Program-made: the position numbers and the translations under genes | Shown: one piece after another, positions 46,090 to 54,637 of the stretch | Layout: every line of letters starts with the position of its first letter | Numbering within the stretch: position 1 is the first letter of the stretch | Assembly: GCF_028372415.1 (NCBI RefSeq) | Contig: NC_092872.1 | Span: forward strand, 279,561,206-279,625,205 | Direction of reading: 5' to 3' | DNA length: 64,000 bases | From: Notamacropus eugenii | Lineage: Eukaryota > Chordata > Mammalia > Diprotodontia > Macropodidae | The notes under the pieces: generated by a model | The model's database searches: none | The model's input: only the letters and a program-made list of their open reading frames with translations | Told to the model about the DNA's origin: nothing

Positions 46090-46222
46090 TGACAATTTTC
46101 TTGGAATTTTATTCAATAAAAAAGAAAAATATTCTAAAGAAAAAAGAGTAGGCTCAGATCCTTTGGGGAAAATCACTTCCCAGTGAGAGGTGATGAGAGA
46201 GAAAGTCAGAGAGATGTGGGCT
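46090..46222 (-). other. RNLS: RNLS 3' UTR (probable short form)
   Basis: From the TAG at 46223 the minus strand runs about 110 bases, through a T-rich stretch, to an AATAAA at 46113-46108. Cleavage would fall near 46090. This makes a short 3' UTR of about 130 nt. A longer form using a more distal signal cannot be excluded. Confidence 0.6.
46108..46113 (-). terminator. RNLS: Polyadenylation signal AATAAA of RNLS
   Basis: The plus strand reads tttatt (AATAAA on the minus strand), in the context ttgaataaaattcc, about 110 nt past the renalase stop. It is the first canonical signal downstream. Confidence 0.6.
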
Positions 46223-46375
46223 CTACAGATGAGGCTTCAAGGCCTCCATGATGCAGAGGGCGGATTCCAGGCACCCATCAAAGTTGGACCGAGTAAAGCT
46301 GTCACCTCCACAAATGAGCAAGGGGTTGTGATGAAGAGTCATTTGTCCTGGGCAGTTGGGGATGGCTTGTGTCAC
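46223..46375 (-). CDS. RNLS: Renalase, terminal coding exon
   Basis: This exon encodes the last 50 residues and a TAG stop. It is preceded by a strong polypyrimidine tract and acceptor (ctatttggcag, ending at 46376). It begins [16 protein letters not shown] and carries [14 protein letters not shown], then ends EALKPHL. About 35 of 50 residues match human residues 293-342 as recalled, with identical length. The GGD segment is the C-terminal motif by which amine-oxidase-fold flavoproteins contact the FAD ribityl-phosphate. Where human has GGDGF this copy has GGDSF. The reading phase (0) fits the exon at 54462-54637, 8,086 bp upstream on the minus strand. The exon is intact, so the gene is probably functional rather than a pseudogene. 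Introns are retained, which also rules out a processed copy. Confidence 0.95.
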
Positions 46376-46484
46376 CTGCCAAATAGAGCACAGAGAGAGG
46401 GGAGAGGGTAAAGACCATGCCACTGGGTGCCAAATGGGAGAGAAAGGAAGGCCTCTCTGTCACTTCTAATTCCACATTTTGATG

Positions 46485-46965
46485 TGACCAGCATTTATTA
46501 AGCACCTACTATGTGCCAGGTGCTAGGGATATAAAGCTGAAAAACAAACCCACAAAAGATTCTCACAACATAAGGCAAGTTCATTCATTCATTCACTCAT
46601 TGCCTTTTATTTATGCTTAGATTTGCCCCATCCTTAAACATCCTTTAATTGATCCTGCCATCGACCATATCTCACTGTCTCAGTCAATAAAAGCATACAA
46701 TGGGGGAGTTATCATGCAAACAACCCTCAATGGGGAACTACCACAGTTTATTCAGTTGGGGGTGACATGATTAGATTTGCATTTTAGCATAGGCTAGAGT
46801 GGGGAGAGACTTGAGACAGACAGACCCAACAGTAACTATGGCAACGATGCAAGCATGAGGTGATGGGGGTCTGCACCAGGGTAGGGGCTATGTCAGAGGA
46901 GAGATGCTGTACAGGTGGAATCAACAGGTCTTGGCACCATATTGGATATCAGAGTGTGAGGAGAT
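46485..46965 (-). mobile_element. L2 fragments in the last RNLS intron
   Basis: 46485-46565 is the tail (catttattaagcacctacta). 46750-46965 is internal (gggtgacatgattagatttg; aatcaacaggtcttggca). Confidence 0.8.
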
Positions 46966-47175
46966 GAAGCTGGCCCTAGGCCTCAGCTCCTCCTCTGTAA
47001 TAGGAAGGGGCTGGACTAAACAGTCTCCAGTCCTGAATCTACAATCCTATGATCTGAACCCAGCTCTCAAGAAAGGCACTGTGGTGCAGGGGAGGAAGTA
47101 CTGGCTTTAGGATCAGACTGTTTGGGTTCAGCTTCTGACTCTGATGGGGATGTACCTGCTGGACAGGCTGGGAGA
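46966..47175 (+). repeat. Two CORE-SINE pieces
   Basis: Tail piece ending caatcctatgat at 47052, then a head piece at 47060-47170 (ggcactgtggtgcagggga). Confidence 0.65.
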
Positions 47176-47440
47176 TCACTTCATGACCAAACTGCCTTCT
47201 CTTCCAGTCAGTCCCACACCAGATTCTTTGATTGTTGGCCCCCATTGGCCACATTTCACCTCTGCCCTTTGATACTCACTCTGGGCAGGTCACTGAACCT
47301 CTCTGAGCCCCGTGTGACTTGGTGTCAAGAGCTCTGGTGTACAGAACAGTTGGAAATTCAGAAAAGTCTTCCTCCATTCTCCTTTTCCTCCATAACAATA
47401 ATAATACGTGACATCTATAGCAGGCTTGAGAGTTCATCTA
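47176..47440. other. No recognisable feature
   Basis: Unique intronic sequence. Confidence 0.45.
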
Positions 47441-47444
47441 TGTA

Positions 47445-48270
47445 TGGCGGACAGGGTGCTGGTCTCAGAGTTAGAAATATATCCTCTCAAATCCTGCCTT
47501 AGATACTTCCTGTCTGGGTGACCCAGACAAGGGGCTGAACTGCTTTGTGCCTTGGTATCCTCATCTGTAAAAGGAGGAGGTTGACTTTTTCTTGAGGTTA
47601 CTCCCCCCCAGCTCCAACTCTGTGGTTCTATATGATCTGCTGACGTCTATGAGCTCCACAGACCCCCTAAGATATTACAGGCTTTATTAGCCTCATTTTA
47701 CAGATGGGAAAATTGAGGCTCAGAGAAGGTCATACAACAAGCACCTACTGGAGGTAGCATTTGATTTCTGATCCCTCTTCAGCCTAAGTCCTGACCTCTT
47801 TTTACTCGGGTGGCACAATGGTCAGCATGGTGGCCCTGGAGTCAGGAGGACCTGAGCTCCAGTGTGGTCTCTGACACCTAGCAGCTGGTGACCCTGGATA
47901 AGGCACTTCACTCCTGCCTTCCTCAGTTTCCTCATCTTTAAAGTGAGGATAATGATAACATCTACCTAGGGGTTTGTTGTAAGGATCAGATGCTTAGCAA
48001 CGAGTCATTTAAATGACAGTTATTTTTACTTATCATTATCATTGCCACACTGACTCCAAGACGCTGAGAATGATGAAATTATGGGACCACAGGTTTGGAG
48101 CGGGGAGGGGTCTCAAAGTTCACTGAATACAATCTTCTCATTTTATAGATGGGGAAACTGAGGCTAAGGGGGTGAAGAAGTGTGCCCAAGGTTCCACAGG
48201 GAGCATGGGGCTGAGCTGGGACTTGGAAGAGTCTCTGATGTTGAATCCAAGATTCTTTCTGCTCTCTGGG
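47445..48270. repeat. Cluster of four CORE-SINE/MIR copies
   Basis: 47445-47640 (+), 47670-47805 (-), 47808-48045 (+, complete) and 48060-48240 (-). Motifs include ctgtaaaaggaggaggttga, ttttacagatgggaaaattg, agtcaggaggacctgagctc and gatggggaaactgaggct. Confidence 0.8.
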
Positions 48271-48689
48271 CAGAAGGACTAGAAGGAAAGTTAGTGCCTC
48301 TTTTCCATGCTTTACTCAGAGAAAGAGGCTCCCTTCCTCTATTGCTGCCACAAGGAGCCCAAAGACGAAGTGCCCTAAATGACAGGAAACTTCTAAAGAA
48401 AAAAAAGATCAGGTTGGTCACAGTCCCATTCCTGGACTTGAGTCCACAAGTGACCATTGGCTCCCACCTCCAGGAACCTCCGTCTTTGTTGGTGGCCACT
48501 CATCCAGCAATCTCAACTATGTAAAACACATTGGAGTATTTGGACAAGCAGAGCAGGAACAATTTATATTCAGAAGTAAACAGAATGCAAAAATAGTGCA
48601 TAGAAGTGAGCGTGAGAAAGCAGGGCATCCAACCCATTGGTCCATAAGAGCATGGTCAGGTTTGCCTGGAATTTCAGGGTTGGAAGCCA

Positions 48690-53205: not shown

Positions 53206-53209
53206 CTTA

Positions 53210-53530
53210 ATGGAACCTTTATTAGGCACTCGCTTTGTGCCAGGCACTTTGGGAGGGTGTGAGGTGAAAAGCCAAGTTCAAGGCAGTCCCTGACCCTGAG
53301 GAGCTTATAATCTTCTATCCCTTCTAAAAGTACTCCACTATCACTTCAGAGAATTAGCATGTTACACTTGGAAGGGACCTTATCTGGTCCAGTCTCCTCA
53401 TTTTACACAAAATACTGCAGCCCAGAGAGCAGAGGGTCATAGCTAAGGTCAACTAGCTGGATAGGGGCAGGGCTGGGTTCAAATTCAGGTCCTCTGGTCC
53501 CACATATAGGCCTCCTTCCCTTACAGCACA
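53210..53530 (-). repeat. L2 tail followed by MIR
   Basis: 53210-53315 L2 (tattaggcactcgctttgtg). 53345-53530 MIR (gggttcaaattcaggtcctc). Confidence 0.75.
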
Positions 53531-53679
53531 CTGGAGACACCAGACATTCTTTTTCATGGGCGTGCTGTTCAGTGCTGGGTGTTTCATTTTGTGTTTACAC
53601 GTCTCAGCCCCATTTCTAGAGCTGTAGCGTAGATGGTGGCCCAGGAGAGTTCTCTCCCTTGATCTCAGGATTTTAGACC

Positions 53680-53960
53680 ATATGGTCCTGTCTGTCCATG
53701 GAGAGGCCTCCCAAAGACCCTGCCTGGTGAGTCGTCCTCCAGCCTCTGCTTCGAGCCCTCAGCGGAGAGGGTCCCTTCTTCTCTAGGCAGTCCATGACCC
53801 TTGGGGACACCTCTCTTGTCTACAGAAGAGTTTTTCCTTGATGTGGTGCCTTTGTTTGCCTTCTCACAACTCCCATCCATGGCTTGTTGCTCTGCCCAGG
53901 TGAGCAAAGTCTGCACTTTGGGGTGCCCACATCCCCAACATGACTTGCTTTAGCTCATTC
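53680..53960 (-). mobile_element. CR1/L3 3' region
   Basis: tcgtcctccagcctctgctt, then gaagagtttttccttgatgt and gttgctctgcccag. Confidence 0.65.
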
Positions 53961-54019
53961 TGCTCCTGAGACTCACAACTTTGAACATTACTATTTAAGA
54001 GAGGTCAGTGAGATGTGGT

Positions 54020-54300
54020 GGGAGGCATTCTGAGAATCTCTTACCTGTGTATCCCTGTGTGACTTCAGGAAAACCACATAACTTGCTTTTGGACCTGATG
54101 ATCCAGTGCTCTTATTCACAACCATAGCGCTGTGAAGAGAGGTGCTGGACAGATTTGGGTTTAGAGTCAAAGGGCTGCCCCTGCTACTCCAGAGTCCTCA
54201 GTGGAAGACCCTTAATCCCTCTGGGCCTCAGGCTCTTCATGGATATAGTAAGGGGTTAGAGTAGATGGCTTCTTCTAGGTCTAAAGCTATGATCCTCTGC
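54020..54300 (+). repeat. CORE-SINE, degraded
   Basis: ctgggcctcaggctcttcat, ending ggtctaaagctatgatcctc. Confidence 0.7.
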
Positions 54301-54461
54301 CTCCAGTGACAAGAAAACTGGCCATAAATAGAGGAGTAGATTGGGTGAAACTAATACATCCCCTTGGCCTTAGGGATTGATCTCACAGCTGAGACTATCT
54401 CTCTGTACAGGCAGAGGCCATGCCATGGATGGGAGAGCTGTGCAGAGGACCTCCTTCTCAC

Positions 54462-54637
54462 CTGGGAGTATGTCCATCGGTGGCATGTGGTGCTAGCTGG
54501 CCTGGGCATGCCTGGCAGGATGCTGCTCACTTGCTGCACGATCACATCCTGCACATCGTCAATGCTCTTCTCCAAGTTCTCCATTCCAAAGGAGGTGGTG
54601 GTGTGGACAACCACAGACGGGCCTGAGCCCTGTGCAT
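54462..54637 (-). CDS. RNLS: Renalase, penultimate coding exon
   Basis: Renalase is a secreted/cytosolic FAD-dependent oxidase of isomeric NAD(P)H forms. This exon encodes 58 residues plus the last two bases of a split codon. The 3' splice site reads ctcctgcag before position 54637 and the 5' splice site reads CCCAG then gtgagaagg at 54461. The peptide aligns without gaps to human renalase residues 235-292 as I recall them, with about 29 of 58 identical. Matching blocks are GPS, HTT, DVQ, ILPG and the final W..SQ. The exon ends at a codon boundary, as the human one does, where known isoforms diverge (residue 293). It belongs to the substrate/FAD domain region before the C-terminal FAD-contacting segment. 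No stop or frameshift is seen. The previous exon is not in the window. An overlapping plus-strand frame is a shadow. Confidence 0.93.

Follow-up and report, generated by a model that had tools for sequence, protein, structure and literature searches.

The two coding exons found on the minus strand of the window, the whole 64,000-base stretch of DNA that was analyzed (C1:279561206-279625205), are almost certainly the 3' end of an ordinary, intact marsupial renalase (RNLS) gene, which is the only intact copy that our searches showed. The RNLS gene described here is an ordinary orthologue in its expected position; it brings no new biology, and the value of the result is one of annotation only, in that the model of the RNLS gene and its synteny with PTEN are now settled for this genome of 3.45 Gb (3,445,252,223 bases in 254 contigs). 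In window coordinates the features were placed as follows.

54462..54637, minus strand: RNLS coding exon 6, residues about 232-290 of 340, acceptor CTGCAG, donor GTGAGA
46223..46375, minus strand: coding part of RNLS exon 7, residues 291-340, acceptor TTGGCAG, stop codon TAG
46376..54461, minus strand: RNLS intron 6, 8,086 bp, separating exons 6 and 7
54638..64000, minus strand: part of RNLS intron 5, extending past the window to exon 5 at C1:279657795-279657968
46108..46113, minus strand: predicted proximal poly(A) signal AATAAA, read from the sequence
45566..45571, minus strand: possible distal poly(A) signal ATTAAA, about 30 bases beyond which a decayed copy on C14 stops matching
1..46107, no strand: intergenic side facing PTEN, from the position of PTEN

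Exon 6 is continuous in phase with exons 5 and 7 and ends in phase 0, so that the reading frame runs unbroken into exon 7 (46375-46223, minus strand), whose terminal letters are CATCTGTAG. The original prediction had described two minus-strand exons with consensus splice sites and matching phase, and both were seen, at 54637..54462 and 46375..46223; its estimates of about 50% and 70% identity to human renalase agree with the counts of 29/59 in exon 6 and 35/50 in exon 7. Since an AATAAA lies at 46113-46108, the left edge that it gave, 46090, would be a plausible cleavage site.

In a tblastn comparison of human renalase with the window, exons 6 and 7 scored 88.2 and 73.9 bits and the next match 25.0 bits, and the best score in a control of 20 shuffled windows (blocks of three bases) was 25.8 bits. 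A phmmer search with the 109 residues of exons 6 and 7 gave human renalase (3QJ4, E = 1.1e-44) as the sole PDB match at E <= 0.001. These values, set against the shuffles, indicate that the exon observation is real and far above chance. The identification as renalase was upheld, with no other flavoprotein family among the PDB matches at that threshold, and no evidence against renalase identity was found. No Pfam family was returned for the C-terminal 109 residues on their own. The tail of human isoform 2 had no convincing match in intron 6, its best alignment there covering 9 columns and lying on the strand that does not carry the gene. A plasmid search in protein mode gave no matches.

The whole gene was then traced with human renalase against the genome, which gave eight matches. 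Seven of them lie in order on C1, minus strand; the first begins with residue 1 at C1:279848661 and the last reaches residue 341 at C1:279607434. These seven together span human residues 1-341 except 234-236; the eighth, on C2, was weak (E 0.86) and contained one stop. As had been anticipated, upstream renalase exons lie past base 64000: five coding exons were found to the right of the window and share contig and strand with exons 6 and 7 (exon 5 match at 279657796, exons 1-4 at 279841083-279848661). With the exon borders placed by hand to suit the frame and the human alignment, the coding extent runs from C1:279848661 to C1:279607428 on the minus strand, about 241 kb, in seven coding exons of 112, 106, 143, 159, 174, 176 and 153 bases (exons 1-7), and intron 4 measures about 183 kb. 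All six donors begin with GT and all six acceptors end with AG. Joined, the exons make up 1,023 bases that encode 340 residues without an internal stop. In the alignment with human renalase 225 of 342 columns are identical, with one 2-residue gap; exon by exon (1-7) the identities are 25/37, 22/35, 40/48, 33/53, 41/58, 29/59 and 35/50. The joined protein was matched by the Pfam families NAD_binding_8 (50.3 bits, cut-off 21.9) and Amino_oxidase (53.5 bits, cut-off 19.8), and VGAGLTGA, at residues 7-14 of the joined frame, is an N-terminal GxGxxG Rossmann motif.

Renalase binds FAD by an N-terminal Rossmann motif and oxidises aberrant dihydro-NAD(P) isomers (2- and 6-dihydro-NAD(P)). The gene described here presumably encodes a normal FAD-dependent renalase: judged by homology, the 340-residue renalase-family flavoprotein would bind FAD via its N-terminal Rossmann motif, and the FAD-dependent product would oxidise off-type dihydro-NAD(P) isomers. 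We infer from sequence that RNLS is transcribed, that its protein is active and that its poly(A) sites are used.

The position of PTEN was determined by searching the genome with the human protein, which gave 12 matches. Seven were found on the plus strand of C1 at 279324727-279401274, with 73-99% identity over residues 1-55 and 84-403, and two of these seven contained one TAG each. Those on C4, C23 and C24, five in all, showed 27-52% identity and look like paralogues. The last of the PTEN exon matches reaches as far as C1:279401274, some 160 kb to the left of the window, which bears out the earlier placement of the window in the RNLS-PTEN interval with its left 46 kb facing PTEN. The distance from the end of PTEN to the renalase stop codon is 206 kb and the two genes lie tail to tail, as human RNLS and PTEN are also oriented. 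According to PMC6033966, PTEN and RNLS share a region in human (10q23) and likewise in the mouse genome.

The DNA-level search drew attention to a second locus. At C14:69885691-69886660 there is a decayed copy of renalase exon 7 and its 3' flank, with 64-65% identity. The DNA match reached 73% over query bases 225-352; the alignment starts at the 25th base of exon 7 and runs through the 3' flank with 193 of 296 columns identical (65%), and window positions 45534-45803 match the fragment further on at 64%. The match stops about 30 bases past the distal ATTAAA, beside an A-rich stretch of GAAT/GATG repeats. An end near the distal signal and beside an A-rich repeat fits an old 5'-truncated retrocopy, but the fragment may instead be a DNA-level copy of the RNLS 3' end. 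A genome search with the 109 residues gave four matches, the two window exons together with C14 (E 0.036; three TGA in the translated match) and C2 (E 0.19; two stops). None of these is a rival gene, the C14 and C2 matches being weak or decayed, and no second intact renalase gene was shown by the genome searches with DNA, with the 109 residues or with human renalase.

It might be argued that the C1 gene is a diverged renalase paralogue and that the true RNLS lies elsewhere in the genome, as the identity of exon 6 to human renalase is just 29/59 and a second DNA match is present on C14. We regard this as exceedingly unlikely. Seven of the eight matches in the genome-wide search with human renalase belong to the C1 gene and the eighth has an E value of 0.86; on C14 there is a fragment of exon 7 and 3' flank, 65% identical, whose translated match contains three TGA, and the C1 gene lies beside PTEN, as RNLS should. 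That the exons are instead pseudogene remnants with no working gene deserves just as little credence, since all seven are open and in phase, their donors reading GT and their acceptors AG. Both readings were dropped in view of the seven-exon set on C1, its open frame and the synteny with PTEN, in favour of an ordinary, intact RNLS.

Within this RNLS gene, exon 6 is the least conserved relative to human (29/59, the other six exons ranging from 33/53 to 40/48) and is still open and in frame. A shift in constraint or function of the C-terminal part of renalase in marsupials seems very improbable as the reason; relaxed constraint across mammals in the exon 6 segment would explain the divergence as well. 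Our literature searches found no relevant work on renalase in marsupials, and the search on RNLS evolution brought up plant immune-receptor work.

The description of the remaining window as gene-free stood as far as RNA genes were concerned, with no Rfam matches at gathering score and no tRNA in the window. On the protein side, Pfam was applied to 7 of the 46 listed window ORFs (at least 110 aa) and gave one match, an L1 ORF1 fragment at 58114-58470 on the plus strand (Tnp_22_dsRBD, E = 5e-9). Two similar reading-frame remnants, both containing the motif SHGGQKKQYK, were seen on the plus strand at 11285-11686 and 55457-56019; Pfam gave no match for them, and we take them to be probably LINE reverse-transcriptase tails. 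A trinucleotide-type tandem array, to which periods of 18 and 21 bases also fit, occupies 40105-40259.

The marsupial origin of the genome, also part of the original prediction, was supported by a mitochondrial marker. Marsupials have, between COX1 and COX2, a tRNA-Asp gene with the anticodon GCC, which is changed by RNA editing. This anticodon was reportedly described by Janke and Paabo in 1993 and by Borner in 1996, both of which are among the references of PMC9553926. A COX1 family search gave a short match on C1 and two full ones on C121; each of the latter contains 14 TGA codons, in keeping with the mitochondrial code. In the sequence that follows COX1 on C121, ARAGORN, set to its mammalian mitochondrial mode, found tRNA-Ser(TGA) and, directly before COX2 (a gene assigned by eye), a tRNA whose anticodon is GCC; it reported no tRNA-Lys there. 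At gathering score Rfam listed only the tRNA-Ser neighbour and not the GCC tRNA, whose call is based on ARAGORN and on its position between COX1 and COX2. A third ARAGORN structure, tRNA-Ser(gga)-like and located at a satellite junction on C121, is probably spurious.

The mitochondrial segment itself covers about 2.8 kb (C121, about 12230-15062) and contains, in this order, tRNA-Tyr, COX1, tRNA-Ser and GCC tRNA, followed by what were assigned by eye as COX2, ATP8 and the beginning of ATP6; its reading frames are long when translated with the mitochondrial code. As for the tRNA order between ND2 and COX1, where a departure from WANCY would be expected of a marsupial, the segment stops at tRNA-Tyr and runs into satellite DNA. 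It sits within an array of 176-177-base satellite repeats rich in TTAGGG-like words, at a distance of 38,292 bases from the second COX1 copy on that contig. Either an assembly artefact or a recent insertion of mitochondrial DNA into the nucleus, amplified together with its satellite, could account for the segment.

Compared with human renalase (3QJ4), the protein deduced here is collinear over its full length with 66% identity; it differs in lacking two residues near the N terminus and in its more diverged exon 6. Its last exon break follows the residue aligned with human residue 292, in agreement with the predicted break at 292/293, and we take the human gene's own last exon break to be located at residue 292. 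The bacterial renalases 4ZCC and 3KKJ belong to the same flavoprotein family and are matched by human renalase at E ~1e-6, but they are far more distant and were not matched by the C-terminal 109 residues of this gene at E <= 0.001. According to PMC2958117, human renalase1 is made up of seven exons (1-4, 6-7 and 9) of a 311 kb gene, and the gene described here has the same number of coding exons. PTEN lies in the same region as RNLS here, as in human according to PMC6033966.
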